Of a stretch of 64,000 nt of DNA, positions 14,821-57,100 are shown in pieces. Each line of letters opens with the position of its first letter. The first letter of the stretch is position 1. Source of the stretch: Zygnema cylindricum (taxonomy: Eukaryota; Streptophyta; Zygnematophyceae; Zygnematales; Zygnemataceae); contig JBBHKE010002363.1 of assembly GCA_037447655.1 (NCBI GenBank), forward strand, positions 129,286 to 193,285, read 5' to 3'. The position numbers and the translations under genes were made by a program. The notes under the pieces are model-generated. The model did not search any database and was not told where the DNA came from. It saw only the letters and a program-made list of their open reading frames with translations.

Positions 14821-15060
14821 TTAGCCTGCAGAAAAGCTGGCCAACTCCGTCGGCAGTTCACAACACCCATGGCAAAACGAATGGCTAGCTAGCACAGCTG
14901 TCAATGGAGGGACTAGGCACTCCATATGGAACCCATAATTGCAATGGTCGCACAAGAGCATGGAGGTCTCGCCGTCTGCTCGTCGGAAAATGGTACATTC
15001 TGTCGCCTCTGTGATTGGCATCCTCATCTTTTCCATATCTTGTGACAAATATGGTAAGTA
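14821..15060 (-). pseudogene. PHD finger at the C-terminus of relic O
   Basis: The minus-strand reading TECTIFRRADGETSMLLCDHC...GFHMEC...SFCHGCC fits the PHD zinc finger Cys4-His-Cys3: C-x2-(C, here Phe), C-x2-C, H-x2-C, C-x2-C. One zinc ligand (the second Cys) is replaced by Phe. The block follows the integrase C-terminal region, 25-30 residues after an APCYLP motif that is APCHLR in element H. PHD fingers read histone H3 tails. By analogy with integrase chromodomains it may have steered insertion to marked chromatin; that role is inference. Confidence 0.75.
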
Positions 15061-15189
15061 ACAAGGTGCATAGTTCTTTCAAAGATGTCGAATTGTCCTT
15101 GTGTCCTTACCTTGCAAACCAAACATCCCGTTAGAATCCATTTCCACCACACGAAAAATGTATGGTGAAACATCCATGTCTAAAGTGTC

Positions 15190-16128
15190 AAGAGATTTTT
15201 ATCGAAGGTACACGTAATCACCGACTCGGTAAGATTTCTGTTGAGGCTTGTAATTGCCACTTCGCGTTGTGGCAAACCGCAAAAAACCCCGATGTTGGGC
15301 AATCTGCAAATTATCAAAAGCCATAGGCATCTCACGAGCAAAAAGCAAAGCACGGCGAGTTAATTCTTCCAAAATTATGGTGTCAAAAATTAGAGGCAAA
15401 GGTAAACTGACCACTTTCTCAATATTCCAACAAGGGAGCTCGACCAAAAAGAATATAATAAGGGCTGAAATTTGCCAGACTAGCTTGAACAGTCATCCGG
15501 TAGCCCATGGTGATGTAGTCTAATGATTCGTCCTAGACAGAAATGGGTTTCTCTAAACAATGCTTTCGAAGAGCCCGCTTGAAAGTCTGGACAGCTCGTT
15601 CCGCCAAGCCGTCGGTTTGAGGGTGATCACGACTTGTTCGGCGATGATAAATTCCCCTCGGAAATCCCTTCCTTGATTAGTAAGAACCTCTACAAGAGCT
15701 CCATAACGCATGAGGACGAGCTCTTTGAAAGCAGCGGTCGTGAGTTTAGCTGTCTTATGGGGAAGAGCGACCACCTCTATGCATTTGCTAAAATTTTCAA
15801 TCATTATCATGATATATTGTTTCCCCCTTTGAGAGATGGGAAACGGGCCGGCAAGATCCACGGACCAGCGATAAAACAATCCCCTAATGGGCAATGGTAG
15901 GAGAGTCGCTTGCCGATTAGAGAAAGAGGTGCGTAACCGATCACATGTGCAGCATTTGGGGAGAATGGCCGCCACATATGCCTCCATTCCGGACCACCAA
16001 CAGCGTGCCTGTACAAGGCTTAATGTGTACTTGGTCCCGTAATGTCCGACCTCGGTATGTATTTGCTCAATTAAAGACAAGCGCTCGGTTGGTCGGGGGA
16101 CATGCCGATGATTGCTGTTTGCCAACAA
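15190..16128 (-). pseudogene. Integrase of relic O
   Basis: Minus strand: an H-x3-H type zinc domain (IHTEVGHYG ... CCTCDR), then the catalytic core with SVDLAGPFP (first Asp intact) and VLTNQGRDF, where the second catalytic Asp is Asn. The frame breaks near 15553. The C-terminal part continues at 15447-15199 (REMPMAFDNLQIAQHR ... YRVGDYVYLR). Two changes, the Asp-to-Asn and a frameshift, make it inactive. Confidence 0.85.
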
Positions 16129-16444
16129 CCGAACTAAAGATCCGTCGAGCCATAGATAATTTTTGGCCCGTTTCTTTACTCGGTCCTCCTCATCAGCGGT
16201 GGGTCTTGATCAAAAAGTTTGAGAAGATAAAAGTAGGATGAGGGGCCCATTTTGCCACGGATCCGCAACCGAACAAGAATTCGGTATGGAAGCTAAACAA
16301 TGTGTGAGGTAGGCACCAACCGATAGGGACGTTACCTCTTCGTCATCGAAATCTTGCAGGTCTCCGTTGTCTGTGGTTCGTGGCAAAGGATTTCGGGAGA
16401 TTCCGTTAGTGTTGAGGCTGTGAAAATCCGATCAGTGAATGATT

Positions 16445-16728
16445 TCAACATCGTATTCTTGCAAAATTAGGGCCCATAGGGCGAGCTTCCTGAAAAGCTT
16501 GTCGTTCATCATCAACCAACGGAGGGGGTTGATGGTCAATTAGGAGTGTAAAAAGCTTGCCGTAAAGATAATGTCGGAAATGGAGGATACCCCATACAAC
16601 AGCGAGACATTCACCCTCATAACTACTATAATTCGATTCAGCCCGGTTATTGCTTTGGCTCGCATATGCAACTATGTACTCCTCCCCGTTCAACTCGCTT
16701 TGTTTAAGAATAGCCCTGATGCCTGGCT
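16445..16728 (-). pseudogene. RNase H C-terminal part of relic O
   Basis: Reads NGEEYIVAYASQSNNRAES then SSYEGECLAVVWGILHFRHYL, a Ty3-type RNase H. The catalytic Glu of YEGECLAVVW is present. It is cut at 16728 by the LTR of element E. After this block the frame degenerates through the linker to integrase. Confidence 0.85.
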
Positions 16729-17728
16729 TGTTGAAATTAAAGGTTTACTTAGGTATTTTCTAGGTTACTTAAATGATCTAAATAGGAGCAAGAAAAAGCA
16801 AAGGCAACTTGCTTCTAACTTCTCTCTCTAGCCCCCATACTTGCCGTAGTCATTGAAGGCTGGAGAGGAAGCTAGAGCCATGGCTGCCTATGCTTCCCCT
16901 AGAGTCAAAAGGCAGCCCTTTTGGTAAACTTACCAAAAAGGTTGACGGACCCAGGATTTGATCCTGGTACGTACTGTCCGTCAAGTAGTCTAGTGTTGTT
17001 ACCATGTAGCCTAGCACCTGTGTTGAAGAATATAGGGTACGATAACTACTTGAAGACGTGGAAATAGAGAAGTTCATTTAACTGATGAACGACCACAATC
17101 ACATAGACAGTTAGATAGAATCATATAAAAAAGTACTGCTTGTATTTTAAACGGCTATAAATTAAGGCCGATATCAATCGAATGGCGAAGGAAGAAGCCG
17201 GGATCACGGAATAGGCGATTTGGCGGTTTGTGGTCACAGCCACACTGAGTGACACGTGGCAACATAACATTGGATAGCGACATCAGCGAGACATACCATG
17301 GGGAACGCGGATATGGCAAGCTTTGTCTTCTTGGCCATGTCGTACAATGGTCGTACAGAAAGTACTCCGGGCCAATTAACTTTCTGTACTTTACAGTGAA
17401 TTGATTGGCTCAGTACTTTTGTAGTTATGGGATTAGAGAGGGGTTTAGGACTTAGGAAAATTATAGGTAGCCCCCTCTCTCTCCCAAAGAGCTTTTGTAT
17501 AAAAGGTCATCCTTGACCATTGATAATTAACTGTTCAGGGGAGCAAATTCAAGGATTCTTTTTGTGGCAGACTCAGAGGAGTTAGCTCTTTTAAATGGTG
17601 CAATTTGGTTTGTATGTATTTTGTCAGGGTGTCAACAACACTCATACAAAAACTAAGGGATTGAGGTTATCCTAGAGGCTCCTGGTAAGCTGCCTACTCT
17701 GAGTACTAATGGAGGTCTCAGAGTTGCA
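16729..17728 (+). repeat. 5' LTR of element E
   Basis: TGTTGAAATTAAAGG ... CAGAGTTGCA. TATAAAA box at 17498-17504. Hairpin with 9-bp arms 16942-16950 and 16976-16984 enclosing CCAGGATTTGATCCTGG. Gag ATG at 17709, inside the LTR. Confidence 0.93.
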
Positions 17729-22072: not shown

Positions 22073-23073
22073 TGTTGAAATTAAAGGTTTTCTTAGGTAT
22101 TTTCTAGGTTACTTAAATGATCTAAATAGAAGCAGGAAAAATCAGAGGCAACTTGCTTCTAATTTCTCTCTCTAGCCCTTATACTTGCCGTAGTCACTAA
22201 AGGCTGGAGAGGAAGCTAAAGCCATGGCTGCTTATGCTTCCCCTAGAGTCAAAAGGCAGCCCTTTGGGTAACTTACCAAAATGGTTGACGGACCCAGGAT
22301 TTGATCCTGGTACGTACCGTCCGTTCAAGTAGTCTAGTGTCGTTACCATGTAGCCTAACATCTGTGTTGAAGTACATAGGGTACGATAACTACTTGAAGA
22401 CGTGGAAATAGAGAAGTTCATTTAACTGATGAACGGACCACAATCACATTGACAGTTAGATAGAATCACATCGAAAAGTATTGCTTGTATTTTAAACGGC
22501 TGTAAATTAAGGCCAGTATCAATCGGACGGCGAAGGAAGAAGCCGGGATCACGGAATAGGCGATTTGGCAGTTTGCGGTCACAACCACAACGGGTGACAC
22601 GTGGCAACATGACATTGGATAGCGGCATCTCTGGGACATACCATGGGGAACCCAGATATGGTAGGCGTCAGCTTCTTGGCCATGTCGTACAATGGCCGTA
22701 TAGAAAGTACTGTGAGCCAAAAACCTTTCTGTACTGTACAGTGAATTGATTGGCTCGGTACTTAAGTAGTAGAGGGATTAGAGAGGGGTTTAGGACATAG
22801 GAAAGTTAAAGGTAGCCGCCATTTTCTCCCAGAGAGCTCCTGTATAAAAGGTCATCTTTGACCATTGATAATCAACTTCTCAGGGGAGCAAATTCAAGGT
22901 TTATTTTTGTAGTAGACTCTAGGGAGTCTGCTTTTCCAAGGGCTGCACTCTGGTTAGTTTGTATTTTGTCAAGGTGTCAGTAATACTCATACAAAGACTA
23001 AGGGATTGAGGATATCCTACAGGCTTCTAGTAAGCTGCCTACTCTGAGTACTAATGGAGGTCTGAAAGTTGCA
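22073..23073 (+). repeat. 3' LTR of element E
   Basis: 1001 bp, TGTTGAAATTAAAGG...GAAAGTTGCA, colinear with 16729-17728. The LTR-borne ATG is followed by TGA two codons later. Confidence 0.92.
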
Positions 23074-23640
23074 TGGTCAACAGCTAGAACTAAGTGACCA
23101 AGGTTTTGGGGACTGCCACAGTGTTTGATGTAGCTATGATCGGATCAAGAGCCCACAGAGTTTCGGGCTTATTAGACCAACTTGGTTCCTCTTCCCATCC
23201 TCCAACAGCTATTAAAAACACAGGTTCTCCATCCCAACATCACAGTTTAACAGATTCTCAGACCAAGGCGAATGGCTACCACTATGATCATAGCCGAACG
23301 AGCACCCTTCTTTCGTTGTAATCAACCCGGAAAATCAACATCGGGCCTTACCAACCCTGGTATCTTTCCATAGCAGCCATGGTTACCACAAAGGCGCACT
23401 AGGAATGATCTTCGACAGTACGGCCGCTACGTGGACAACACCAAGTATTGAGGAACGGGAACGAGAAATGGGATTTTGATTAGCAACCACAACAGCACCA
23501 CGGGTCTGAACCTCCAAAAGGTGTAGTTTAATCGGGCAAAGTATGGATTTGAACGCAATTTCATGGGCGCTGCAACATTCTTTGGCATTCTCCAACCTCC
23601 AGTCTCCAAAGTCACAAGCAAAATACCTTCAAGCTCCACA
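23074..23640 (+). pseudogene. C5 DNA methyltransferase, C-terminal motifs (relic F)
   Basis: Reads VFDVAMIGSRAHRV at 23118-23160, equivalent to the A-H-R-A-R-Y-F-W block of DNMT3-type enzymes. It continues through LGMIFDSTAATWTTPSIEE at about 23400-23455 to EREREMGF and GQSMDLNAISWALQHSLAFS, the motif IX-X end. Each block has a matching block in element H (MGSRANRVRAYW; MIFDSKAGLWTTPTI; GQSVDLNSITWILKHAL). The catalytic motif IV half is missing because copia E borders the fragment at 23073. Confidence 0.7.
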
Positions 23641-24039
23641 GTTGTTGGCCATGTAAACTACTCTACACCTTGAGGGGGGGAGAGAGGCAAGAAGGGAAAA
23701 ATTCACCCAATTTCATTCAGATAACAGAATGAACCTAAGAGTTTCCTAAGTGGGGGAAAGCGGAGGCTTAGAAAAGATCAGCTTACGGAAAGTTGTCAGC
23801 AGCAGCGTTTTAGCTGGTGAGCAACGGACACATCCACAGGTAGATCTAGAATTCAACATCTCCCTCTAGGGTCGTCCACCGCAAGCATTGGCGGCAGTGG
23901 AACCCGAGAAGATGGATTGGAATATAAGGGAACAACTAGACCCAAAATAGAAGGTCTCGCTCTCCTAGTTGTTAGAGGAGAACTAACAGGTGTTCTCTTG
24001 GTCTGACATAGATGTAGGGATCTATAAAGGGACCCCTTT

Positions 24040-24262
24040 TCGGATAATCCTGACCAACAATACTGCAACAATACCCTTTCAGCTTCAAGGAGAAAGGAGT
24101 TCATCATTGCAAAGCTACAGACTTTGGTGGACGCAAGGCTCGTGCAGGAGAGTATAGGGCTACATGGGTTTGCCTCTTTAGCAGTAATCTCGCCAAAGAA
24201 AGACTCCTTCGGAAAACTGTAGATTTTCGGATGTGTGGGGACTATCAGATGTGTCGAGCCTA
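24040..24262 (+). pseudogene. Reverse transcriptase N-terminal block (relic F)
   Basis: EFIIAKLQTLVDARLVQES then GLHGFASLAVISPKKDS matches the finger region of Ty3-type RT and the H copy at 47878-48078 (EFITANVQTLVKAGLVQES). A TAG follows the GKL codons near 24220. No downstream RT remains before 24496. Confidence 0.75.
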
Positions 24263-38855: not shown

Positions 38856-39039
38856 AGAAATCTGAACTTCAAGCTTTCGGAAGCTCAAAGGGAAGCAAGT
38901 GGATGAGAGCGGGTCACAGCCTGCAATCAGAGTAGACGAAAGAGTTTTTCTTAAAAATTGCTTCCTCTACGGAAAGTTGATCACACTTGTTCCCTCAAAA
39001 CCCACTGTCTTGATCCAAGGGGTTTCAGTTTACTCAGCG

Positions 39040-41508: not shown

Positions 41509-42497
41509 CAGGTGGCATTTATGGAAAAGGACGCGACGGTACAAAGAATCCTATTTTATAAGAGTACTTAAAATTGGTAAGCGTAATTTATGGCGAAGTA
41601 CGTAATTGCGGTACGGACAAATTTGGATGGTTTGACGTCGTTTCGTCAAGTGGAATTTGGGATTACGTGGCGCGACATCGAGGGTGCCGAACAAGAGCGA
41701 CGGACGGTGGACAAAGGCCGCCGGTATTTTTCAAGTAGTGGTGACGCGAAATAGCGTCAATCACACAATATCTATTTTTGGACGGCTCGGATTGTTTTAC
41801 GAGATTCGTGGAGTCTTGTTGACTTACACGCAATGACTCATTATACGATTTTGTTGTCGGTGTAAATATTTGGTTAAACATGGTTTTGTCTTTTTGTGAA
41901 TTAGTTATTAGTGTACTTTTACTCATTTTGACATACCTTGAAGTATTCGGGTATATTAACTTTAATTGAGGTAGCTGGTAGATAGCGTACGGCTGGTATG
42001 TCCCCGTACATTTAGTAGTGAGCTCTAGTTTATATTTGTAGGACTTAGTCAATTTAAGACATAGGAACTTTCTGTACCAAAAACTGTTTATGGTCATTTT
42101 TGATAATTGTGTGTGAGTATTGCTCTCAGATCTGTTGGCAAAATTATATGAAATTTTGCATGTATGTTCCTCCTTGTATTGTTTACGTTGCTAAAGATTT
42201 CAGGCCTATTGTGTGACTGGTCTGTGTTTTATTTCATTGTGAATCTGCCGGTTTTATCAAAGTTATGGCAGTCTGTTTTTCTGCAACTTTGACCAGATGA
42301 TGTGATCACTCTGTTCATTATATTTGTCTAAAACTTTGCGAGGTTATTTTGTAGCCTAGAAACTATCAGTGTTTGCAGTTTCAGTTTGTTTTGATAATTC
42401 TGTAGAATTCTGTGTTGATTCAAAGTAGGCTGTTTTTGGGTAGTCTGTGGTGCTTCCGAGGGTAAATCCATGGCTGAAAATGGCTATGGACAACACG
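41509..42497. other. Unassigned sequence between relics I and H
   Basis: No coding similarity recognised. GTAC-rich words and GTACGTAATTGCGGTACGG resemble LTR U3 sequence, so it may be an LTR of an unrecognised family. Confidence 0.4.
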
Positions 42498-42785
42498 GGA
42501 TGGTCACTCCAAAGCAAAGATAACTCCAGATGAAGACACAAATGTACTACCACGTAGAAATATGTATATAGGTAATAAGATTGGCTTTCCAGATTTAACA
42601 ATATCACCTTGCCCCCGAAAAGAAAATAAAGGAAAGAGAATGTGAAATATAGCGAAGCAAGCTTAACATACCCCAGCAATAAACGATGACAATGAGAAAA
42701 AGGCGAACCCTCTCCCGATAGGATTGTAAATAGGCATGATGCTCCTTCAACACCTGGTGTCCGCAGCTCGGAACCGACCAGACTC
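42498..42785 (+). repeat. ~280-bp dispersed repeat, copy 2
   Basis: Matches 39040-39316. It probably belongs to the 3' part of the H LTR on the minus strand. Confidence 0.7.
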
Positions 42786-43595
42786 TTCTCTGTTTCAAAC
42801 AGCAAAAAGTCCAAAAATCACCCAAAAAGCAGATAGTGCCAACTAACTGCCCGGATTGTGATTCCCACAAAAGACAAATCCAAAACCAAGATGGCAATAG
42901 ATTCAAAACAGAACAAAAATTCTCCAAAAGAAGGTTTGTTGGTTTTTTGAGGGTTTTCACAGGAAAGAGTACTGAAAAGCAACCTGTCTCCTTCGTTCCC
43001 AAGTGCCTTATACATCAAAGTTTGTCAAATTGCAGGCCCAAAAGTCAAAGCTACGCTATTAACCAATGAGCGGCAAGCAAGTGCAATTGAACTAGCAGAA
43101 GACTGAATAATCCGTACTTCACTCGGGGCAAAAAGTTCTGCTCCGGACTGCGGCTAGATCCGCGGCCGGAAGTAATTTTTTGGTCCACTATAATATGACA
43201 AAGTCCTGAAAAGGACACTAACTTGCCAAACTTAGACCTAACGTAATTAATGGACAAAAAGTCAGCTGAGCTTGAGCTAAATTCCTACTGATGGCTAACA
43301 GCATAATCTAGATGCAAATATAGAAAGTTACGTGGCAATCCACAATGTACCCCCCACGGAGGCTGTCGCAAACTGGTCCCATGTAACAGAATTGCAATCT
43401 TTGAAGCGGTAGAACTTGGTCATTTGGCCTCCGTTAGACGCGAAATAACGTGTGTTCTGCTCAGTTTAGGAAATACAAGGATCTCCTCTCGCTTGGTGCG
43501 CTCATTCCTCCGTTTTGTGAAGAATGTACAGGGTAAAAAGGGTTCGAAATCCTTGGTGAAATACGGGTGTGCCTGAAAAGCATACGAGCTTGACA

Positions 43596-43876
43596 GCTAT
43601 CGAGCGTGCCTGAGTTACTTGAGAGAAGGGCCCACAACCAAGAGTCGTCGGCATTGGAATCCTGCAAATAACCCCCAAATGCGAATGCTTCCCAGAATGA
43701 TGATCATGCCCAATGCTGCCCACATACCTCCCATAGATATGCATGCAAATAGGAGAGAAGCTCAGACAGGGAAAAAGAATGATCGTATGGGAAGGCGAAA
43801 GGAATCCCCTCCCCCTTCCATTCCCCCACCTGGCCGGGGAAAGGGTTTGGGGTCTTGGTAGTGGGATGATATCCTA
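43596..43876 (-). repeat. Start of the 3' LTR of element H
   Basis: On the minus strand it begins TAGGATATCATCCCAC (terminal TG mutated to TA), directly after a polypurine tract, and matches the truncated LTR at 36908-37186. The LTR must continue left of 43596, but its end cannot be placed; 42498 is a candidate. Confidence 0.75.
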
Positions 43877-43919
43877 ATTTCCCCCACTTTTAGTCAACCG
43901 TGACTAAGACATAAAATTA

Positions 43920-44303
43920 CCCGTCCTATTTGCAGTTCCCACATAACCATGTGATGGAGGGTAGAGAGCGTGGCTCCCAAGAGGATGGGAGACAAGCTAA
44001 ATGCGAGCTTTGACCACAATGATTGCAGATCAATAAGTCGAGCAGCTAGGAGGAGTGATTGTAAACTGATGAACATGAAGGAGGATCGGTAAAGTACGTT
44101 AAGTGAAAAGTGGGTTCATCCTCTAGTCCCCGAAGATGGCAAGGGGCCACATTGATCTGATTATCTTTAATTCTTCGACCATCCTTTCCCTCCAATATAA
44201 GCACCCCTTTATTGGAAACCTCAACCACTTTCAAAATTACTCGCCTGGCATAAATATCCCGCGTGTCCTTTAGTTCCATCCGATAAAAAAAGTTCCCCGA
44301 CAT
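43920..44303 (-). pseudogene. Integrase C-terminus and PHD finger of element H
   Basis: VILKVVEVSNKGVLILEGKD leads to APCHLRGLEDE, then, in the same frame across one TAG (about 44046), CNHCGQSSHLACLP and WLCGNC before a stop near 43922. The spacing C-x2-C-x4-H-x2-C ... W-x-C-x2-C is that of the second half of a PHD finger. An upstream C-S-S-V would be the first ligand pair with one Cys lost. It is the orthologue of the PHD finger in relic O. The polypurine tract follows within about 40 bp, so PHD is the very C-terminus of the polyprotein. Confidence 0.72.
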
Positions 44304-44306
44304 AAA

Positions 44307-45315
44307 TCATCGCTGACGTGGCACATAATTCCCGCTCAGGCGCTGAGAATACCACAACTGATTTCGGTGTTGAGCCGCTTGCAAATATCCCATGGCAAAA
44401 GGCATCTCTCGGTGAAATATTTTGGCTTTGTCCGCGATCAGTTTTGCGACTGTTCCCTTGTCATCCATCTCTGGGAGGCCCACCGCTGGGGCCGATGGAG
44501 CCCCGGGAAGGATGGGATGCCGTCCAAATAAAATGAAGTAAGGACTATAGGAGTTGAGAGAAGCGTGCTTGCTGAAGCTGTAACCCATAGCAATCCACGG
44601 CACCCTCTTGTCCCACTCCCCCAAATCTTCTTCAACTGCAGATTTTTGTAGTGATCTCTTCTGTGTTTGTACGCACCTTTCGGCCAAAGCGTCGCCTTGT
44701 GGGTGGTCACGGCTGGTTAGCCTATGGTCTACAAGGCATTTTTCCAAGAAGTTGGAAAATTCGCTGGCATATTCGGAGCCTTGGTCGGTTAGAACTTTTG
44801 TAGGCGCTCCGAATTCGGTTAAAACCCTCTACAATAATGCATCTGCAATAGCCTTGGACTCCTTTTGGGGAAAAACCACCAACTCGATCCACTTGGAAAA
44901 ATGTTCTATCATGACCAGCACGAAGTGGTTCACCCGCCTGCAGGTCGGAAGAGGTCCCAAAAGATCCAAAGACCACCGATAAAACATTCCCCGGATAGGA
45001 AGCCAATGAAGCTCAGTCTCGCCCATTTTGTCAAAAGCTGCCTTGACTCGGTCGCATGAGGAGCAAGTCTGCACAATTCGGTTGACTTATGTTCGCAACC
45101 CGTGCCACCAATAAGAGCTCGTAACCAGGGACGTGGTCCGCTTGAGTCCGAAGTGTCCACATTGCTGATGGAGATTGGAAATCAAAGTTTCTCAGTGTGA
45201 GTGGGGGAGGAACCACTTTCCTGGTGCTGTCTGACCATTTCCGGAGGAGAACTCCTCGGTCCCAATCGTACGCAGCCATTTGAGTCTGCACTCGAGATAA
45301 TTGGATTCTAATCAA
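44307..45315 (-). pseudogene. Integrase of element H
   Basis: HHCC zinc domain (HQQCGHFGLKR ... VQTCSSCDR, 45160-45040), core with WSLDLLGPLP (first Asp), VLTDQGSEY (second Asp, near 44780) and LAERCVQTQK (Glu, near 44680). All three catalytic acids are present, but a frameshift near 44830 splits the core. The run ends with REMPFAMGYLQAAQHR. Confidence 0.85.
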
Positions 45316-45369: not shown

Positions 45370-46518
45370 GGTATCCTTACGATCGACCCATATGGGCGCC
45401 TGCCCCTCCACGTTTGCCGAGAAAGTTGGCAGTTCCTCCCCATATTCGGGAAGCCACATGAAGGCAGAGGATGCTCGAATGAGTCCCACAGGGATTTTCG
45501 GGTCCTCATAATGCCGGGCCCCGGTGGATTCCATGGTGGAGGGATCGGGATTGCGGCTAAGTCCGTCGGCATTGCCATGTATTTCCCATGCCCGGTGAAC
45601 AATGTCGAAATCATATTCTTGCACGATGAGAACCCATCTGGCGCGTTTGCCCGTTAACTTGCTATTTTCCATGATCCATTTTAAGGGTTAGTGGTTCGTG
45701 ATCAGGGTGAAATGGACCCCGTTCAAATAAGGCCGGAAATGCTGGATTGGCCAAACCGCTGCGAGTAGCTCTCCGTGGTAACTGCTATAATTTCCCTCTG
45801 CTTTGTTGTTGCTCCACTTGGCGTAGGCCACCACATATTCAGCTCCGGCATCAGTGACTTAAGCCAAAATTGCTCCCAATCCAAACCTGCTCCAATCAGT
45901 GTAAAGGAAGAAAGGCCTCTGGTGATCAGGCATACGGAGCACTAGGTGTTGCTATAGAGCATCCATCAAGAACTGGAAGGCAATCTTTTGTTCTTCGGCC
46001 CACTACCATTCTTGGTCATTCCGCAATTGCTAATTGAGGGGCTGTGCGTGACTACTGAACTCGGGGATAAACCGACAATAGTAGTTGGCCAGACCCAGAA
46101 AGGTGCGAAGGGCCGAGATGTCCTACGGTGGGGGAAGAGCGTCAAGGGCTGCCACCTTGACCATGTGGGGACCCACAGTCCCGAGAGTCACCTCATGTCC
46201 AAGTTAGATGATCTTCGGTACCCCAAAAATACCTTTGCCCGGGTGATATTTCAAGCTCGCTGCTTGGAGTGCCCGGAGAACAATCTGGACATGCTCCAGG
46301 TTTTCCTCAAAAGTCTTGGAGAATATGATAACGTCATCAATATAGCACCGGGCACAATCGATTCCTCATAGCGTTTTTTCCATTGCCCGTTGGAATTTGG
46401 CTAGTGCATTCTTGAGCCCGAATGGCATGTAAATCCATTCATATAGTCTAAAACCAACCCAAAATGCGGTTCTCTCCCAATGATTCAGTTCCATGGCAAT
46501 CTGGTGAAAACTGTTCTT
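45370..46518 (-). pseudogene. RT palm/thumb and RNase H of element H
   Basis: Resumes left of solo LTR P with NSFHQIAMELNHWERTAFW and IYMPFGLKNALAKFQRAMEKTL. The active site is CYIDDVIIFSKT (about 46340). The thumb carries TFLGLANYYCRFIPEF. RNase H has FFLYTDWSRFGLGAILA, SSYHGELLAAVWPIQHF and the tail GNADGLSRNPD. At least six in-frame stops. Confidence 0.85.
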
Positions 46519-47759
46519 TGAAACTCTGAGACCTCCATTGGCCCTCAGCGTATGCAGATCCAAAAGAAGCTAATCTAGATAGTGCCGACTCCAAGTTAAT
46601 ATAAACCCAAGTGACTGACCCCTTGACAGTCAGAACCCCAATATAGATTCACCCCTGTGAAATAACACTTTCTGTGTGCTCAGTTCCACCACAGAATGCA
46701 AAGTTAGAATATGAGATTTGGACACATTCACCCACTTTGACTTTCCCTTAGAAATACAGCCACCCTGGCAGACAAAAACTCTGACCGACTACACCCCTTT
46801 GTAGCCTAGACTCCCGTGAGTCCGCAGCAAAAAGAATCACTGAAAATGGTCAAGTAAATTGATAGTTATGGCTGCCCAAAGTTAGCCATTTATACAAGGT
46901 GCTCTCTGGGAGAGACAGCTATCTACCCAAAATTTCCTAAGTCCTATTCCCCCTCTAAAACTCTATCTACTGAAGTACGGCACCAATCAAATTACTGTGT
47001 CGTACATAAAAGTACAGGTGCCGGTGTACTTTCTGTACGGCCATTGTACAACATGGCCAAATTGTCGACACGTGTCATAGCTGGATTTGTTTCCGCAATC
47101 TCCGGAGTCGCCGCAATCCAACATTGTCGCGCCACGTGTCACATTACGTGGCGATGGCTGAAAAAACGCCAAAAGTACATGTTCCGTGATCGCGGCACCT
47201 ATCGTGGCCGTCCGATCAAAATCGGCTACAATCCTAGCCGCTGAAATTCGACGCGCGGTATTTGTTTCGCTATCGAAACAAATGCGCGGTATTTGTTTCG
47301 CTGTCGAAACAAATGCGCGGTATTTGTTTCGCTATCGAAACAAATGCGCGGTATCCGTTCTGCCCCCATTCCGTACTTCGTACTAAATTAAACCGTATCT
47401 ATGTACTAAGTATCTATTAGCCGTTAAACGGATTAATCTACATATGACGATTTATATATCTGTCAAACCCTATGTCGTAATATCTGTTCTAGACATAACG
47501 GCTAGAGCTAACGGCTACTGAGGATTGACGGACGGTAGGTACCAGGATCAATTCCTGGGTCCGTCAACTACCTTTTGGTAAGTCTACCTAATTTACCACC
47601 TGTCTTCTCTAGAGAGCCTAGGCAGCCATGGCTCTAGCTCCCTATCCAGCCTTCAGTGACTACAACAAGTATGGGGGCTTGGAAAGGGGAGTTAGAGGCA
47701 GACCGCCTCAGCTCTTTTTCTATCCTAATACAGACCTATAAAATACTCAAATATCAACA
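46519..47759 (-). repeat. Solo copia LTR P inserted in the RT of element H
   Basis: 1241 bp, minus strand, E/M-type terminus (TGGAGGTCTCAGAGTTTCA), flanked by a perfect 5-bp duplication TTCTT (46514-46518 and 47760-47764). Removing it rejoins the RT sequence. TATAAA on the minus strand at 46889-46894. It is about 200 bp longer than its relatives, partly because of a triplicated 31-bp palindromic repeat. Confidence 0.93.
47253..47354 (-). promoter_or_regulatory. Three tandem 31-bp palindromic repeats in U3 of LTR P
   Basis: Units at 47253, 47284 and 47315, with a partial fourth at 47346. Each contains ATTTGTTTCG-CTAT-CGAAACAAAT, a perfect 10-bp inverted repeat (the middle unit has CTGT in the loop). 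Related LTRs carry one degenerate copy (for example N at about 29550-29580). This resembles amplified enhancer units in retroviral U3 regions. Confidence 0.85.
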
Positions 47760-48430
47760 TTCTTCATGTCCAGAGTGGAGAATATAGTGGCGCCAGCAAA
47801 AAGTCAAATATCTCTTACGGGGTTGGCATCGGATATCAGTCAGAGATGGTGGCAGTATTCAGCAACCGATAATCTCCTCACATTCGGAAATTTACAGTCT
47901 TCTTGGACGAGTCCTTCTTTGGAGGAAGAAATGTCGCGGAAGCGAACCCATGAAGTCCTGTGCTTTCTTGAACCAATCCGGCTTTCACCAAAGTCTGGAC
48001 ATTTGCCGTAATGAATTCTTTCTCTTTGAAGCTGAAAGGATACTGCTTTTGCCAAACCGTAGCCGTCTCGTCGAACAAATCTATTCAAAAAGGTGTTCTT
48101 TTGTAAATACCGACATCTGTTTCGGACCATGAGAACACCTGTTTATCTTCAGGCCAACATTTTGGAAAGCAACGCCTTTTGCTGAGTGTCCAACTGCTCC
48201 CTAAGGGTCCAAACCATTTTCCCCGACTCAATGGCAACCTAAGCTTCCGTCGGTCTACCCAGAGGTTAATCTTGAATTCCAACCCTACCAGTTGATCTGC
48301 CTCAACCTCTCTGGCTAGGACACTACTGTTGACAACTTCCGCTAAGCTGTCGCCATCCAAGCCGCCGCCCCCCCCTGACTAGGAAAACCTGCGGCGATGA
48401 AATGTGAATTTATCTTTTTCTTCTCCTTTA
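47760..48430 (-). pseudogene. RT N-terminal part of element H
   Basis: Linker EVVNSSVLAREVEADQLVGL, then a KQVFSWSETDVGIYKRTPFE spacer, then FSFKEKEFITANVQTLVKAG and LHGFASATFLPPKKDS, continuing through CGDYRLLN-like and IFDFLLAP to IFSTLDMK at the LTR P boundary. Frameshifts near 48085 and 47880 and several stops. Confidence 0.85.
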
Positions 48431-48439: not shown

Positions 48440-49520
48440 CTAAAGCTGCAAAGCTGCCTTTATCGCTAAAAACTGAGGAGCTTGAAGGTAAATATCCCTT
48501 GATTCCGGGGACTTGAGACTAGAAAAGGCGAGTGCATGCTTGAGTATCCATGTGATCGAATTCAAATCCACACTTTGCCCAATAAGGCTCCCACCTCTGA
48601 TGGTCTGACATACCTGGTGCTGCAGTTGTGCCTTTATGAAATCCCATTGCTTCTTCTCGTTCGGCAATCGTCGGTGTTGTCCAGAGTCCCGCCTTGCTGT
48701 CAAAAATCATTCCTGCTGCTCTTTTCTGATAAGCGTGACTGTGAGGAAAAGAGACCAATGTCGAGAGTCTTCTCTGTGGGAATCCCGATTTTGTTGCACC
48801 GAAAGAAAGGGGGGCGGTCTGGTCGAGTCACAAGGGTGGCCATTCTACCTTCCCCAAGTATTTGCTGCACAAAATTTTGCGGGTCGGGGATTCCCTACTC
48901 CAACTGTTGCCGGAGGAAAAAAAGCGAGATCATATTGGTCCAATATGCCCTGACTCTATTTGCCCGGGATCCCATCTGGGTGTAGTCGAAAACCAAAGGA
49001 GCTCGTAAATTTCGTGTCACGTAATTCCAGCTGTCCGCAACCTGTTTGCGTTTATCATCTCCCGGGTGGACATTTTTTAGAACGTACCCCACCGATGTGT
49101 CTTGGAGCTATTGAAGCCAGGAGACTAATTCGATCAACCGGTAAAATGTTCCACTTCTACGGTCTTGATGCCCTTTTCCATGTCCTGCTAGGGAGTATCC
49201 CTGACAAGACCAACCTGCCAACACCAAATCCACTCTCGCCGAATTGGCCAGATGGGTCGCCATGATGTCTTCTACATTTTGGGAAGACTTCGTTGAGCTT
49301 TTGAGAAGGCTGAAACTGGAAGCTATTGAGGATATAACTGGTGAAGTTGGTGGAGTCGATGTTTGCTGACAACCCGTGCATTGGGTGATATCTCCACGGC
49401 TGTATATGACTCCTCCCGATATCCTGTTTTAAGAACAACTTCAAAATCTGAATTGATTCCAAAAAAATAGAGATAAAATTCGGAGGCCAGAATGTAGGAC
49501 TGTCAATGACACCACATATC
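48440..49520 (-). pseudogene. C5 cytosine DNA methyltransferase, DNMT3-like, inside element H
   Basis: Minus strand, in canonical (not DRM-permuted) order. Motif I region LRILSLF followed, after a one-base frameshift, by GYREESYTAVEISPNARVV (49490-49370). Motif IV VDLVLAGWSCQGYSLAG, with the catalytic Cys codon at 49204-49206. Motif VI YVLKNV, where the catalytic ENV Glu is Lys (49075-49077). Motif VIII MGSRANRVRAYW (about 48980-48940), then IFDSKAGLWTTPTI and IGQSVDLNSITW near 48520. The family transfers methyl groups from S-adenosylmethionine to cytosine. It lies between protease and RT of a Ty3 element, and relic F repeats the arrangement. A TAG follows SWLQ (about 49110), and there are two or more frameshifts. 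Glu-to-Lys alone should abolish activity. Confidence 0.82.
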
Positions 49521-50580
49521 GGTTGAATTTTTCATTATTGGACCTGGTTCTGGAAACATCATACAGGGGTATTGAAACGGGTTCTTTTAATGGTAAAACC
49601 GAGAAAGTTTGATCCACTCCCCGCCGAAGTGTCGCCACCAGTAATAATCTATTCTTGTATTCCTCTTCCCACCGCTTGGAAATGAGGAATTGCTAGATTT
49701 CTTCGACTATATCGGTGGAATTGCCAAATAGTTATGTCAAAGATGATGTAGCATACACCCAGTAGCAACCAAACACCGGGATATTTGTCTTCTCTCGGTT
49801 CCATAAATCTAAAGGAACCACCACTGTGGTTCCTTCGGGATTTCCGAGGTTCCGAACGGTAAACTGTTCCTTCCACACACTCAAACTCATATTTAGCCTG
49901 GTCCAAGTAGCCATTCCCAACAGAATATCGAATTAAGTCCCCTCCACCACTAAGAAGGGAAGCTTAATTTTTACCCATTTTCCTCCGTCATCAGAAAACT
50001 CGAATTCCATTGCCTTGAAAATCCCATGGACGCGCTGACTGCCGTCGCTTAAGGTGCTTAAGCAAATATTGCTTGGGAAAATTTCGGGCCGGAGTTCCTT
50101 CGGCATTTTCTGCAAAGCGGAGGTGATGATGAGATTTGGGAGCGCTCCGGTGTCGACCACAACGTTATGGTATCCTGCGTACCCGTTGAGCTTAAAGTGT
50201 CCAGTTTGGTTTAGTAAGAGAGCCAATGATAAGGCTTTGTATTCCCTATCCACTATAGGGGTTTTCAAATCTATGGACAAAAAGACTACAGTTGGCGGAG
50301 TGGCCTTGTCAGGGATAGCCTTGTTGACCCTCCTTTTTCTAGAGTGGATCTCTTCTCCCGATGACTGAATGAGGAATTCTTCGGGCAGGTTATAGGAGGA
50401 TGCAAGAGTCTTTACGTGGGTGAGGGCGTATGGCATGAGGTGCCGGATTAGCATGATAGAAGGTTTGGAGGAAAGTGTTGATTTCGGAAAGCTTTAAGTC
50501 TCGGTATATTAGTGTGAGGGCAGAAAGGTAGTAATTTGCAGCGTAAGTTTCATAAAGATATGCGTCATCACTAGAGTGTA
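49521..50580 (-). pseudogene. Gag C-terminus and aspartic protease of element H
   Basis: The leftover gag end reads ETYAANYYLSALTLIYRDLK, then KLNGYAGYHNVVVDTGALPN with D-T-G-A at the active site (about 50160). Then FEFSDDGGKWVKIKLPFLVV and a LLGMATWTRLNMSL-like flap/core to 49730. The 400 bp between this and the methyltransferase (49521-49920) reads as a linker with VVVPLDLWNRE and DVSRTRSNNEKFNR. Frame interruptions at about 49935 and 49735. Confidence 0.75.
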
Positions 50581-50679
50581 GTACAGAACAACGTAGCTGC
50601 TATGCAGACAGAGCAGCGCAGCTGCTATGCTGACAGAGCAGCGCAGTTGCTATGCAGACAGAGCAGCGCAGGAGCGAAG
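50581..50679. repeat. GCAGC-rich 24-25-bp tandem repeat
   Basis: Three copies of GCAGACAGAGCAGCGCAGCTGCTAT-type units, split from its right part (57101-57190) by the insertion of element D. Similar GCGCAGC/CGCAGC-rich sequence recurs at 58255-58375 and 63290-63420. Confidence 0.8.
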
Positions 50680-51718
50680 TGTTGAAATATATAGATTTCT
50701 AGAGTATTTTCTAGGTTTAAATATGTTTTTATAAAAGGAATAAGGGAAAGGACGGACAACCTGCCTTCACCTTTGCTCTCTAGCTCCCATACTTGTTGTA
50801 GTCACTGAAGGTAAGAGAGAGAGGTTGATCCATGGCTGCCTTAGTCCAACAGACAACTATTTTTAGTAGGTTACTAAAAATATACTTGACGGACCAGAGA
50901 TTTGATCCCGGTACCTGCGGTTCGTCAAGTTGACCGGTAGCGGTCAGCTTTATCCTAATAGACTAGGACCAATGCTAAGTGCTATGGTATGTGATAGATA
51001 TATATTTAGTTCGAGTGGATAAAATTTATTTAACTAGAACTTTATACGGCGTACATAGATTCAGTTTTATAAAGTACGTCGTACGACGTTAATTCAAAAC
51101 GGATACCACGCATTTTATTTCGACATCGGAACAAATGCCGCGCAAGTATTTATTACGGCTAAGATTGCGTTTCGCATAAAATCCAACGGCCCATATCATC
51201 GCCAAAATCCCGGAGTGGTCACTTTGGCGTTTTGTGACGTGGCATGATCTGGAGACACGTGGAGAGATGACATTCGGTCATAGGAATTCCGAGGAACGTA
51301 CGGACGAGTGAAAAGCGGACACGCGTCCACTTAATAGCCTTGTCGTACATAGGCCGTACAAAAGGTACATCGGCAGTAGTACTTTTGTGTACGATACAGT
51401 AATCTGATTGGTCCGTACTTCAGTAGATAGGAGTTATTAGAGAGAATCAGGACTTAGAAAATTTTGGTAGGTAGTCACCTCTCCCTTTGAGAGTTTGTAC
51501 AAATTGGCATTTTTACTGCCTCATAACTTATCGGCTGGTTGGTTGTTTTCAGTGATTCTTTTTGCTACAGACTCAGGGGAGTCTAGGCTGCACAGGGGTG
51601 CAGTCAAATTGTCTGTTTGCCTTCTAAGGCAGAAGTGGTCGTGGCTTAAAGTGGGTTAGTTAAATACTATCTAGAGGCTTCCTATATTCTGTAGTCCAAT
51701 GGAGGACACAGAATTGCA
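50680..51718 (+). repeat. 5' LTR of element D
   Basis: TGTTGAAATATATAG ... GAATTGCA. Hairpin arms 50885-50895 and 50919-50929 (11 bp, one G-T). The TATA position reads GTACAAA (51498-51504). Gag ATG 51699-51701 lies inside the LTR. Confidence 0.95.
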
Positions 51719-54700
51719 GGTTATGGGCCCACCCTCTAGGGTGCCCACCTTCAATGGATCTGGGTTCATCTATTGGGAAGCCATGATGATGGGAGCTTTG
51801 TGTGAAAAACGATACTGGGGTATCGTCAGTGGACAAGTGAAACGTCCACCTTCGGGAACTCCACCAGGATTTGGGGGAGTAAGGTTTTCTGCAACAACGG
51901 CTGCCTCAGTGGAGGAGGCAGATGATAGGGACAGCAGTGTGTCCGAAAAGGAAAAAGGGAAGGAGACACCCCTCACTCCTATTGCCACAGTATCGGGAGC
52001 GGCGACCGTGAAGACCGTGGAGAACGATACTCAAATGTGGGAGGATGTAAACATGGCTGCCAAGAACTTCATTCTGAGGCACCTCACTCAAGGTTTGGCC
52101 ACTCCTCATCTTCACATTTACAAGGCCCAGGAGTTGTGGGAGAGTTTAGTGGAGATTTATAGAGCTGGAACTATTCAGGAGCTCCAGTTGGCTGAGCAAA
52201 AGCTATTGAGTTACACTTACAAAGGAGGAAAGATATTAGATTACTGTAATGATCTTTCTTGTTTGTATATGGAAATGGAAAGTGCCGGGTGGACAGGTAC
52301 AATGAAAATGAAAGTTAACACCCTTATCATGAAATTACCAGATGAGTTCGAAAACATAGTGTACCGAGTACAGGGAATGCCTGATAGTTCATGGAAATGG
52401 AACACAGTAGTCAGGATGATACTTGTGCAGGAAAACACAATGGAGATTAGGAGAGGAGGAAAGAGCATTCAAGCTCTAGCAGCAGGAGGGGACCGATGGG
52501 GGAAGGACCCGAAGAAACCTTATAGAGGGGAAAGAGATCATTCTGGGGGACAGAGGCCCCCAAAGGGTCTTTGTCATTATTGCAAAAAGCCGGGACACTT
52601 TATTGCAGATTGTGTCAAGCTATCAGAGCTGAGGCTTCAAGAGAACCGTGGAGGAGGTTCTTTCGGAGGAAAGAAAAAGGCACTTGTGGTTACAAAAGTG
52701 TCAAAAGAAACCGAGGATGAGTCCTCTGAGGAGGATGGGGAGCTTCTTCTTGACGAGAGTCTGGAGGAGAAGGAGATCCCTCGGAGGTAGAAGTGTGTCT
52801 TAGGAGCAATTCGGGAAGCTCCACAGGAAGGATGGATCATCGACTCAGGTGCATCCATGCATATGTGTCGTGATAAAGAACTCTTCACTAAGCTAAGAAA
52901 AATTCCTACTGTAGAGATAGAGTATGGGGATGGGAGAGTGGTTACTACAGATCTAGTGGGATTAGTAGATATGAAAGTCTTAGTGGAGGGTAAGACTTCT
53001 ATACTTACATTCTCAGATGTACTTTACATTCCTCAGCTGAGTAAAAATCTTGTCTCTACGTCTGTGTTAGATGACAAAGAGTTTGATACTTTCACCAAAA
53101 AGGGAGTCTTTACAGCTAAGTATGGGAATGAAGTTTACTTCACAGCAGATAAGGGTAGCCAAGGAATGTTTAGGCTTAACCTGAGTAATGAAAAGAAGAA
53201 TGCTTATTATGTTGGTGTTCCTAAGGTGATGATTTGGCATAAGCGATTGGGGCATGTGCATTTTGATAGGTTGAGGGAAATGAAAAAGCTTGGGGTAGTA
53301 GATGGCATTCAGTTTGAGGATAATGAAATGATGGATGATTGTAGTGGTTGTGCTCAAGGTAAGGCTCACAAACTTCCCTTTCCCAAAGCCGCCACATATA
53401 GAGGTGAGAGAGTGTTAGATTTGGTCCACACAAATATTTGGGGACCTTTAAAAGTACCTTCGGTTGGAGGAAAGAGATTTATGATGACAATAACTGATGA
53501 GTGGTCTAGATACTCTAGAGTCTACTTTCTGAAAACAAAGTCTGAAGCATCAACTTACTTCAAAGAATATAAAGCTTGGAGTGAGAAGTTGCATGAAACC
53601 TCGATTAAGAGGATAAGGAGTGATAATGGGGGAGAATATACCTCTAACGAGTTTGAGGAATATCTGAGAGATGAGGGAGTGCAGCACCAGAAAACTGTAC
53701 CATATAATCCGGAACAAAATGGGGTAGCTGAGAGGTTGAATCGAACACTAGGAGATAGTGTGCGCAGTATGTTGGCAGACAAGAAAATAGGAAAGAGATT
53801 TTGGGCAGAAGCAATGAACTGTGCCAACTACATTAAGAATAGAGTCCTTACCTCAGCTGTAAAGGGAGTGACACCTTATGAGAGATGGGTTGGAAGGAAA
53901 CCAGATATCTCACACCTTAAAGTATTTGGTAGCCAAGTGTACAGTCTTGACACAGATAGGAAGAACTGGAAACTAGATGCTAAGGGAAAACCTGGATACT
54001 TTGTGGGATATGATGAGGATGTTAAGGGATATAGAGTCTATGACTTAGTAAAGAAAGATATCATTCTGGTCAAACACTTAGTTGTCATGGATGAAGGGAA
54101 GTCACTTGACCCCTTCAAATATACAAAGAAGATAAGGATCAGATTTGAGTCCGAAAGTGATGAGAATTTGGTAGTTCCCGAAAGGGACATAAGTGAAACT
54201 GTGATTACAGATTGAGGGGAGATCGAAGATACAGGAGACTCACCGGAAACCTCACATACTCCTATGGACTTCGAGGAGATAGAAGAAGCGGGACAAGAAC
54301 CGGTTTTCATGGACAGGGGAGCCAATGGGACAGTGAGAAGAAATCCAAGACTTCCATCCATTCCAGCTTCGGAGTTTGAGGGAGGAAGGAGGAGTAGCAA
54401 AAAGATACAGGAAAAACAAGCTGCCCATAAGGTAACTAAGCTATCGCACCCAGATGAGCCTCAGTCTTACTTAGAGGCAGTGAATAGTCCAGAGAAAGAA
54501 AGATGGATTAGAGCCATAAATGATGAGATGGCTTCTATCATGGAAGCAAATACTTGGGAACTAGCGGATTGCCCTCCAGACAGAAAACCTATTGGATGTA
54601 AATGGGTATTTAAACTAAAACTGAACCCAGATAATACAATTGAGAGGTATAAAGCTCGATTGGTAGCAAAAAGGTTCACCCAAAAAGAGGGGATTGACTA

Positions 54701-56048
54701 TGAGGAGACCTTTGCCCCAGTTGTTCGGTTCCCATCGATAAGGATTCTCCTCAGTCTGGCCGCAGCGGAAGACATGGAAATACACTAGATGGACATAAAG
54801 ACTGCGTTTCTTAATGGTGAGTTAGAGGAAGAAATTTTTATGAGGCAACCCGAGGGGTTTGTGGAAGAAGGAGAAGAGAGCAAAGTCTGCAGGCTCATAA
54901 AGTCCTTATATGGACTGAAACAGGCTCCCTGACAGTGGAACAAGAAACTAGATGAGTTTCTCACCGATCTGGGATACATCCGGATCAGCTCTGACCATTC
55001 TATCTATATGTTTGAAGATGAGAATGGTGTCATTTTTATTGCAATTTATGTGGATGATCTGCTTGTGTTAAGTAAGTCTTTGGAGAATATCAATAGGCTA
55101 AAGAAAGATCTTAGGGGCAGATTTGATATGAAGGATTTAGGGGAGGCAAAATACATTTTGGGGATCCAAATGGAGAGAGATAGGGGGAAGAAGATTATCA
55201 GACTTACTCAGAAAGAAGCAATAGGTAATATGCTTGAGAAATTCCAGATGGAAAATGCTAACAGTTGTACCACTCCTATGGACTTGAAAAAAGTAAGTGA
55301 TGGGAGTGTAGAAGGAGGAGTGATGATCTTAGACGATCAGATGAGTCCAGAGGAGAGAGAGTTCATGAAGTCTATCCATTATAGACAGGTCGTAGGAAAC
55401 TTAATCTATTGTATGAACTGTACCAGGCCGGACATAGCGGCAGCAGTTGGAGTACTCAGTAGGAGTCTTAATGATCCTAGGAAGAGAGACTGAGAGGCAG
55501 CGAAGAGAGTCATGAGATATCTGGTTGGAACCAAAGAATTATGGTTGCATTTGGGAGGGGAGCACACTGATATCACCACTTGGAGTGACGCCAGTTATGG
55601 GGATGCACCTATGAGAAGATGCACTTCTGGATATGTTTTGTATGTGGGGGAAGGTGCTTGCTGTTGGAGCAGTAAGCAACAAAAGGTGGTTGCTCAGTCT
55701 ACTATGGAGGCTGAGTATATGGCGTCTTGTTCTGCTGTAAAAGAACTAATGTGGGTGAAATCATTGTTACAAGAACTGGGATATATGAAGGAGGGAGTGC
55801 ATGAAATCTTTTGCGATAACCAAGCTGCAATTGCAATTAGAGCCAATCCAAAACACCATTTCAAAGCAAAACATATGGACATAAGATTAAGCTTCATAAG
55901 AGAAAAAGTTGAAAATAAAATTTTGAATCTTGTGTAAAGACCTGATGAAGAAATGGTGGCTGACATGATGACCAAACCTGTGCCCTCTCCTAAACTAAAA
56001 TATTGTCGGGAAAAATGCAAGTTGAAAGAAAAATTAAAATTAGACTAG
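51699..56048 (+). pseudogene. Gag-Pol polyprotein of element D
   Basis: One continuous frame of 1449 codons, broken only by stops at 52788, 54213, 54786, 54930, 55491 and 55935; true stop TAG 56046-56048. Gag 1-290; zinc knuckle CHYCKKPGHFIADC residues 292-305; protease D-S-G-A at 382-385; GAG-pre-integrase about 510-555 (WHKRLGHVHF ... CSGC); integrase DDE with the first Asp changed (HTN, residue 579) and Asp642, Glu678 kept (35-residue spacing); RT with YVDD at 1117-1120; RNase H with Asp1297 in WSDASYGD, then STMEAEYM and FCDNQAAI. The first seven residues are LTR-encoded and the next five come from the primer-binding site. Dead through nonsense and the integrase Asp-to-Asn change, but by far the easiest family member to align. 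Confidence 0.95.
51719..51733 (+). promoter_or_regulatory. Primer-binding site of D (half initiator tRNA-Met)
   Basis: GGTTATGGGCCCACC, abutting the LTR, an exact 15-nt complement of the anticodon-arm 5' half of initiator tRNA-Met. Confidence 0.87.
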
Positions 56049-56061
56049 AAAATAAGGGGAG
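56049..56061 (+). other. Polypurine tract of element D
   Basis: AAAATAAGGGGAG directly before the 3' LTR. The same sequence precedes the 3' LTRs of B (13889-13901) and C. Confidence 0.85.
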
Positions 56062-57100
56062 TGTTGAAATTTATGGATTTCTAGAGTATTTTCTAGGTTT
56101 AAATATGTTTTTATAAAAGGAAAAAGGGAAAGGACGGACAGTCTGCCTCCACCTCCGCTCTCTAGCTCCCATACTTGTTGTAGTCACTGAAGGTAAGAGA
56201 GAGAGGTTGATCCATGGCTGCCTTAGTCCAACAGACAGCTATTTTTAGTAGGTTACTAAAAATATACTTGACGGACCAGAGATTTGATCCCGGTACCCGC
56301 GGTTCGTCAAGTTGACCGGTAGCGGTCAGCTTTATCCTAATAGACTAGGACCAATGCTAAGTGCTATGGTATGTGATAGATATATATTTAGTTCGAGTGG
56401 ATAAAATTCATTTAACTAGAACTTTATACGGCGTACATAGATTCAGTTTTATAAAGTACGTCGTACGACATTAATTCAAAACGGATACCACGCATTTTAT
56501 TTCGACATCGGAACAAATGCCGCGCAAGTATTTATTACGGCTAAGATTGCGTTTCCCATAAAATCCAACGGCGCATATCATCGCCGAAATCCCGGAGTGG
56601 TCACTTTGGCGTTTTGTGACGTGGCATGATCTGGAGACACGTGGAGAGATGACATTCGGTCATAGGAATTCCGAGGAACGTATGGACGAGTGAAAAGCGG
56701 ACACGCGTCCACTTAATAGCCTTGTCGTACATAGGCCGTACAAAAGGTACATCGGCAGTAGTACTTTTGTGTACGATACAGTAATCTGATTGGTCCGTAC
56801 TTCAGTAGATAGGAGTTATTAGAGAGAATCAGGACTTAGAAAATTTTGGTAGGTAGTCACCTCTCCCTTTGAGAGTTTGTACAAATTGGCATTTTTACTG
56901 CCTCATAACTTATCGGCTGGTTGGCCGTTTTCAGTGATTCTTTTTGCTACGGACTCAGGGGAGTCCAGGCTGCACAGGGGTGCAGTCAAATTGTCAGTTT
57001 GCCTTCTAGGGCAGAAGTGGTCGTGGCTTAAAGTGGGTGAGTTAAATACTATCTAGAGGCTTCCTGTATTCTGTAGTCTAATGGAGGACACAGAATTGCA
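56062..57100 (+). repeat. 3' LTR of element D
   Basis: 1039 bp, same length as the 5' LTR. It ends ATGGAGGACACAGAATTGCA, so an ATG reads out into flanking DNA. Confidence 0.95.

Follow-up and report, generated by a model that had tools for sequence, protein, structure and literature searches.

Chromoviruses are Ty3 elements with a chromodomain at the end of pol, and PAT-like and DIRS elements have split direct repeats in the order A1-ORFs-B1-A2-B2 (ORF, open reading frame), a tyrosine recombinase and no target site duplication (TSD). Among described elements, the one closest to that reported here is KnitGypsy-Dnmt3, a gypsy element of Klebsormidium nitens with a Dnmt3 in its Pol ORF (de Mendoza et al. 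2018; PMC5890265). The same article reports SymbioDIRS-Dnmt3 and SymbioLINE-Dnmt of dinoflagellates, which belong to other classes (DIRS and LINE) and are independent according to its authors; SymbioDIRS-Dnmt3 methylates CG de novo in yeast. An opinion article of 2019 mentions, in general terms, Ty3 and DIRS elements of green algae and charophytes that carry DNA methylases (PMC6338049), a further article names Copia and DIRS (PMC12344493), and DNMT3 was not found among the MMETSP green algae (PMC9998398). Here we analyzed a 64,000-nucleotide stretch of the Zygnema cylindricum genome (the window; contig JBBHKE010002363.1, positions 129,286 to 193,285). An original prediction, made from its letters alone, had placed a DNMT3-like cytosine methyltransferase between the protease and the reverse transcriptase (RT) of a Ty3 retrotransposon, had suggested that such an element could methylate its own copies or its target, and had pointed to the algal and dinoflagellate elements, which are in print as cited above. 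We consider it likely that the window holds a dead copy of a Ty3-like family with a captured DNMT3-type cytosine methyltransferase, a reading that takes in the proposed steps of methylation, PHD-guided integration and passage through a circle.

The Z. cylindricum family has the features of the KnitGypsy-Dnmt3 kind, namely, an unrearranged Dnmt3 domain inside a Ty3/gypsy pol, purifying selection, and DIRS-like repeats, which we take to mean split direct repeats. It differs in several respects from the K. nitens protein P0024 (KFL_009030040; order DNMT-RT-RNase H-integrase), which we read as a copy of KnitGypsy-Dnmt3: P0024 falls in another clade in both of our trees, and no PHD match was present in P0024, a partial record. 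The main text of PMC5890265 does not mention a PHD finger or a protease, and target duplications, a palindromic junction, chlorophyte members and a second DNMT position were not found in the available text of that article. With the dinoflagellate elements the family shares a DNMT carried by a retrotransposon. With PAT-like elements it shares the order of the split direct repeats, but it has TG..CA ends, TSDs of 4 bp and an integrase of the DDE type. As in chromoviruses, a chromatin-reader-like domain follows the integrase and closes pol; this domain is a PHD finger in place of the chromodomain.

A decayed methyltransferase between protease and RT

The window piece 49428-49111 on the minus strand matched PF00145 with an E value of 7.5e-6 and 26 bits (curated cut-off 22), the significant match that the prediction had called for, and matched TIGR00675 (dcm) with 7.9e-9 and 35.6 bits, below the cut-off of that model (100.65). 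The pieces with motifs VI/VIII and IX/X had no family match of their own in the profile scan; their reading was confirmed by tblastn with the intact sister protein P0003, which covers the stretch. Residues 1-651 of P0003 aligned to 49692-47773 (44%), residues 654-1092 to 46518-45202 (82%), and residues 1071-1520 to 45281-43920 (74%). The order protease-DNMT-RT was as predicted, and the predicted bounds of 48440-49520 agreed with a domain at about 48491-49512. The named motifs lay on the minus strand where they had been placed, but no single frame held them all: they were distributed among two or three, interrupted by stops. The Ty3 RT followed the DNMT, but was split by a copia long terminal repeat (LTR) fragment. 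The PHD finger expected in the same element was also found (Table 1).

The window copy kept the catalytic Cys and lost the Glu of motif VI. Since the intact sisters of its clade have WPCQ and YVLENV, the WSCQ and KNV of the window represent decay. Trp-Ser-Cys-Gln had been proposed as a variant of PCQ; we rejected it as a functional variant, Ser being found in none of the 39 related rows of the alignment. With its stops, its frameshifts and the lost motif VI Glu, the window copy should be dead. When the decayed domain itself was used as a protein-homologue query, no relatives were obtained at E values up to 1, and two window pieces gave no match in viral contigs.

Intact copies in the Z. cylindricum genome

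A PF00145 profile search of the 352,776,454-bp assembly gave 782 first-look candidates, of which 123 were scored. All scored ones exceeded the cut-off, so that the genome holds at least 123 matches, a count that may take in host genes. We fetched 18 of the 123 loci. The choice fell mainly on those with a high rank or a long open frame, and the sample therefore leans to intact copies. DNMT and RT were joined in one open frame of 1520-2395 aa in five of these 18 loci (PF00145, 41-49 bits). Intact copies thus occur in the source genome, and these sisters show a DNMT3-class methyltransferase between the protease and RT of a Ty3 element. RT lay downstream of DNMT, in order, in 16 of the 18; L024 and L025 had DNMT alone. 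A host gene beside an element was rejected as an explanation, because DNMT and RT share single open frames.

In intact copies, the chain of protease, DNMT, RT, RNase H, DDE integrase and PHD is spread over one to three open frames and has the RT-RNase H-integrase (rve) order of Ty3/gypsy. A single 2395-aa frame of L009 held a gag knuckle, protease, DNMT, RT, RNase H, H2C2/rve integrase and PHD, of which the knuckle and protease matches were below their cut-offs. In L013 and L012, one frame ran from DNMT through PHD (17.5 and 21.5 bits, below the Pfam cut-off of 24). The protease ORF of L013 scored 22.3 bits with PF13650, below the cut-off of 24.3, and a 716-aa ORF upstream in L013 had no Pfam match; a gag-like part that precedes pol is indicated by a weak zinc-knuckle match in L009 and by position only in L013. 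The rve and H2C2 integrase was found in L009, L010, L012 and L013, and, at E 0.1, neither the five scanned ORFs nor the ORF that follows in L010 had a tyrosine recombinase family listed. The PHD of L009 was nearest in PDB to PHF12, BAZ2B, WSTF and KDM5-type fingers. Some PHD fingers of these types read the H3 tail.

When P0003 was searched against the genome, 38 matches were obtained from 9812 first-look candidates, 31 of which were scored. For six places with an RT match that started within or behind the DNMT, the upstream DNA was fetched, and DNMT was present beside RT in 6/6; sister elements without the methyltransferase were not seen among them. A seventh place (C961) was excluded because it runs into an assembly gap, and a 5743-aa frame around it was rejected, the gap having been read as N.

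Relatives in other organisms and phylogeny

The search with the DNMT of P0003 recovered 26 public proteins of about 1077-2487 aa. Named relatives came from K. nitens (P0024) and Closterium sp. NIES-54 (P0029), which belong to Streptophyta, and from Haematococcus lacustris (P0028) and a protein labelled Chrzof1 (P0023), which we read as Chromochloris zofingiensis, both Chlorophyta (NCBI taxonomy). P0029 also holds copia domains upstream, and its gene model may therefore be a fusion. Two layouts were distinguished: type A, with DNMT before RT (7/26), and type B, with DNMT after RNase H and, where both were seen, before the integrase (13/26). The remaining relatives had DNMT and integrase only (4/26) or DNMT only (2/26), and PF00628 (PHD) was listed for 16/26. 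In P0023, of type B, residues 737-780 between DNMT and integrase form a G-patch domain (23.6 bits, cut-off 22).

Trees were built of RT-RNase H (31 rows) and of DNMT (40 rows, with a DNMT3A piece as the outgroup and no host DNMT3). In the RT-RNase H tree, type B formed one clade (support 100/99), the window family grouped with P0005 and P0006 (97/93), and the L009 clade and the pair of K. nitens and P0009 each had 100/100. The DNMT tree contained the same groups, with 97/98 for type B including partial rows, 96/74 for the window family and 100/100 for the others. The deep order differed: K. nitens with P0009 was sister to type B in the RT tree (86/80) and lay deeper in the DNMT tree. The direction of a move from A to B was not adopted; the RT tree nests B in A (86/80), yet a single A clade had a p-AU of 0.414. 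It might also be that types A and B acquired their DNMT3 genes independently, each at its own place in pol, and not by one capture and a move, as the two positions themselves, the unrejected monophyly of type A, the lack of a host DNMT3 outgroup and the differing deep order would allow. Alignment A1, however, takes in both types, with 35 columns invariant and its rows 35-49% identical to the first, as compared with 24-28% between DNMT3A and the P0005 model, and the two trees agree in their main clades; two captures appear rather doubtful to us. A search of viral contigs with A1 returned 18 loci (L027-L044) that were 28-48% identical over short segments and were set aside; a search of genome contigs with the profile A1 gave 48 pattern stretches and no relative.

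Class, catalytic motifs and selection of the methyltransferase

Judged by profile and by predicted fold, the element-borne enzyme is of the DNMT3 class. It was closer to DNMT3 than to other C5 methylases among the matches listed. Compared with the model of P0005, DNMT3 structures outscored the remaining C5 methylases of the list, the identity of DNMT3A to this model being that given above, over aligned positions. DNMT1 was absent from the listed matches, to which we attach no weight. The motif order I-IV-VI-VIII-X is unrearranged, unlike that of DRM. The catalytic Cys was present in 38/39 related rows, and the Glu of motif VI and the Arg of motif VIII in 39/39. The elements differ from DNMT3A and DNMT3B in motif IV (WPCQ or WECQ, against SPCN) and in their PHD, which closes the polyprotein; no ADD or PWWP was seen. 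Before the catalytic Cys, the related rows have Pro (17/39), Glu (21/39) or Cys (1/39). Glu was found at this position in type B, in P0017 and P0020, and in the L009 clade. Glu before the catalytic Cys is unusual for C5 methylases.

This Glu, together with IEHV in place of ENV in P0024 of K. nitens and the inactivity of KnitGypsy in yeast (PMC5890265), would suit an enzyme whose substrate is RNA or something else, or a pol domain that has lost methylation and serves a structural role. Such a role seems improbable, since the catalytic motifs hardly vary between clades in their Cys, Glu and both Arg and the model ranks DNMT3 structures above the other C5 methylases listed.

In four of five close pairs of copies, the dN/dS ratios of DNMT were 0.14 (L013-L012), 0.16 (L013-L024), 0.175 (L009-L018) and 0.26 (L013-L021), and the DNMT is under purifying selection. 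Between clades, synonymous sites were saturated (pS 0.78-0.85; pN 0.11-0.36). A DNMT that is kept and selected could also serve self-restraint, methylating the genomic copies of the element or nearby chromatin and lowering expression and harm to the host, with no protection of cDNA. The authors of the 2018 article raised this option, and silent K. nitens copies carry CHG/CHH methylation (PMC5890265). A purely restraining domain, however, should be lost by cheating copies, and DNMT was present in all six readable places, a small sample; we regard self-restraint as unlikely.

Split direct repeats, palindromic junction and target duplications

Split repeats were observed in the Z. cylindricum genome only. 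In C1344, with the order A1-ORF-B1-A2-B2, A1 (85514-86444) and A2 (94981-95911) were alike over 931 bp with zero mismatch, and B1 (94737-94978) and B2 (95912-96154) were 99.6% identical; at least one insertion of the family is recent. The layout was also found in C829, C1915, C1374 (with a 3.7-kb interruption), C2602, C1811, C449 and C1100, and plain LTRs at both ends were absent in these eight copies. The B1-A2 joint was GACA-GC-TGTC (GACAGCTGTC) in 8/8 copies, and also in C1407, whose A1 was not found. A run of 8-12 G preceded this palindrome by about 190-250 bp, and the 10-mer had 8 exact matches in the 178,218 bp of the 18 loci, against 0.17 expected. The outer ends were TGTC... and ...GACA (TG..CA). 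Exact 4-bp target duplications flanked four of the eight copies, TTGG (C1344), AAGG (C829), CCCT (C1915) and CCCC (C2602), for which the chance is 1.6e-8, the length of 4 having been chosen post hoc with the ends already seen.

An inverted solo A-B unit lay upstream, near a full copy, in G000:C544:116589-132288, with the 4-bp flanks exchanged, a sign of inversion between the full and the solo copy; the duplications (GAAC and AGCT) were exact once the swap was allowed for. The window read GATAGCTGTC at 43601-43592, and a stretch beside C544 read GACAACTGTC.

The repeat order is that of PAT elements, and no tRNA-like TGG, as of a primer binding site, directly followed A1 in four copies read by eye, with no systematic search made. 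A likeness to DIRS has been stated for KnitGypsy (PMC5890265). The split repeats could accordingly be copied by a PAT/DIRS-like path, with B1-GC-A2 as a splint that templates circle closure, and not by the standard LTR route followed by circle opening. The DDE integrase, the TG..CA ends, the 4-bp TSDs and the polypurine-tract-like G run right before B1 are LTR-element features and argue against this path, which we hold to be possible though somewhat short of probable.

Features of the window

The coordinates of the Ty3 fossil and of two further fossils are given in Table 1. A copia element, whose end repeats were 97.6% alike over 1041 bp, lay on the 5' side of the Ty3 fossil (50678-57100). At 36908-39316, stretches 88-91% like the B1/A2 of the fossil flank a frame that is 53% like the 716-aa ORF of L013, on the opposite strand. 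A further Ty3 element at 58717-63656 on the plus strand had gag-like, RT and integrase frames and, by eye, a chromodomain-like end; its RT was 90% like an RT in L022, and no DNMT match was obtained at this chromovirus in tblastn of the window.

Table 1. Positions of Ty3 element features and fossils in the window
Feature	Position	Strand	Basis
Decayed Ty3 pol, protease-DNMT-RT-RNase H-integrase-PHD	50472-43929	minus	profile matches and alignment to intact sister P0003
Protease region (HNVVVDTGALPNLI), decayed	49696..50472	minus	tblastn with L013 protease ORF, 66% over 259 columns
DNMT3-class methyltransferase domain (by profile and predicted fold), decayed, several frames	48491..49512 (ends estimated)	minus	PF00145 26 bits; P0003 residues ~61-400 align
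Catalytic Cys codon in WSCQ (WPCQ in the clade's intact sisters)	49204..49206	minus	
Motif VI codon, Lys in YVLKNV (Glu in 39/39 related rows)	49075..49077	minus	
Motif VIII GSRANRVR (GSRAHRVR in the clade's intact sisters)	48949..48972	minus	
RT, 5' part	47758..48043 (start estimated)	minus	blastn to L013, tblastn to P0003
Copia fragment (LTR and leader) inserted in RT	46510..47757	minus	
RT, 3' part	46168..46509 (end estimated)	minus	RVT_1 19.2 and 22.5 bits, below cut-off 29.6; tblastn 82%
RNase H	45598..46002 (ends estimated)	minus	PF17917 50.1 bits, cut-off 24.8
DDE integrase	44578..45222 (ends estimated)	minus	rve below cut-off in pieces; tblastn 74% to P0003
PHD finger closing pol	43929..44045	minus	PF00628 30.4 bits, cut-off 24
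G run immediately before B1 (other copies: 8-12 G)	43881..43885	minus	
Repeat B1	43598..43880	minus	position and homology to C1374
GATAGCTGTC, remnant of palindromic junction GACAGCTGTC	43592..43601	minus	
Repeat A2	42411..43595 (far end estimated)	minus	blastn to C1374 A2: 43310-42546 at 70%, junction 43612-43568 at 84%
Second fossil, same family: DNMT end to RT start	23073..24258	plus	tblastn 58-77% to P0003
Fossil of L009 clade: RNase H-integrase-PHD	14824..16738	minus	tblastn 59-87% to P0002

Proposed mechanism and significance

In the reading that we favor, of a Ty3-like family with a captured DNMT3-type enzyme, the DNMT would travel with the new cDNA and methylate the double-stranded RT product before integration, and the new copy would thereby enter the genome marked like host DNA. 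The PHD, placed where chromoviruses carry the chromodomain, would steer the integrase to chromatin through the H3 tail. If the G run is a polypurine tract, the reverse-transcribed repeat would be B-GC-A, and its joined ends would give A/B, i.e., the A2-B2 joint; opened at one GACA/GC/TGTC, a two-repeat circle would then take on the arrangement seen, A1-ORFs-B1-GC-A2-B2. Cuts by a DDE integrase behind each CA of the palindrome would fit the TG..CA ends and the short duplications. The integrated form is circularly permuted, with its opening exactly at GACA/GC/TGTC; for this reason the integrase would act on the circle junction, and the elements may insert from a circle. For retroviruses, integration at a circle junction had reportedly been suggested at one time and was afterwards abandoned. 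A broader proposal is that circles are the integrating form of a wide group of Ty3-like elements in the green lineage, that their DDE integrase recognizes GACAGCTGTC, formed where the ends of B and A join, and opens a two-repeat circle there, and that the captured DNMT3 marks this double-stranded circle before insertion. It is on the doubtful side; under it, either the DNMT association would predate the green-lineage split or the elements would have moved horizontally.

Several observations weigh against the favored reading. KnitGypsy-Dnmt3 gave no methylation in yeast, a result that its authors call inconclusive (PMC5890265). The window fossil lacks an excess of CpG decay (transitions at CG 71/388, CHG 107/534 and CHH 220/1358), and CpG-biased decay was rejected for it on these counts; the second fossil (23073-24258) had a mild excess (CG 20/88, CHG 36/151, CHH 46/374). 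In the enzyme, Glu or, in one row, Cys replaces the Pro of motif IV as counted above, and one of the 39 rows lacks the catalytic Cys. Phage and giant-virus C5 methylases also matched the model, one phage protein with 1.1e-15 in the viral library, and the DNMT of the pair L011-L017 had a dN/dS of 0.62 on few changes. The target duplication had three of four letters in C1811, C449 and C1100, whose repeats are more diverged, and was absent in C1374.

Within the literature searched, the worked-out DNMT-bearing gypsy element in print comes from one alga only. The analysis adds to KnitGypsy a set of 26 public relatives, the named ones from Streptophyta and Chlorophyta, two DNMT positions, a PHD finger and split repeats round a palindrome. 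DNMT-bearing Ty3 elements here make up a broad group, with two pol layouts, named chlorophyte members and many copies in one genome. As intact domains keep both WPCQ and ENV, self-methylation by such elements becomes testable. To our knowledge, split direct repeats go with tyrosine recombinases as a rule. Their occurrence here alongside a DDE integrase, with TG..CA ends and duplications of 4 bp, runs against that rule, and the family offers a system for testing integration from circles.
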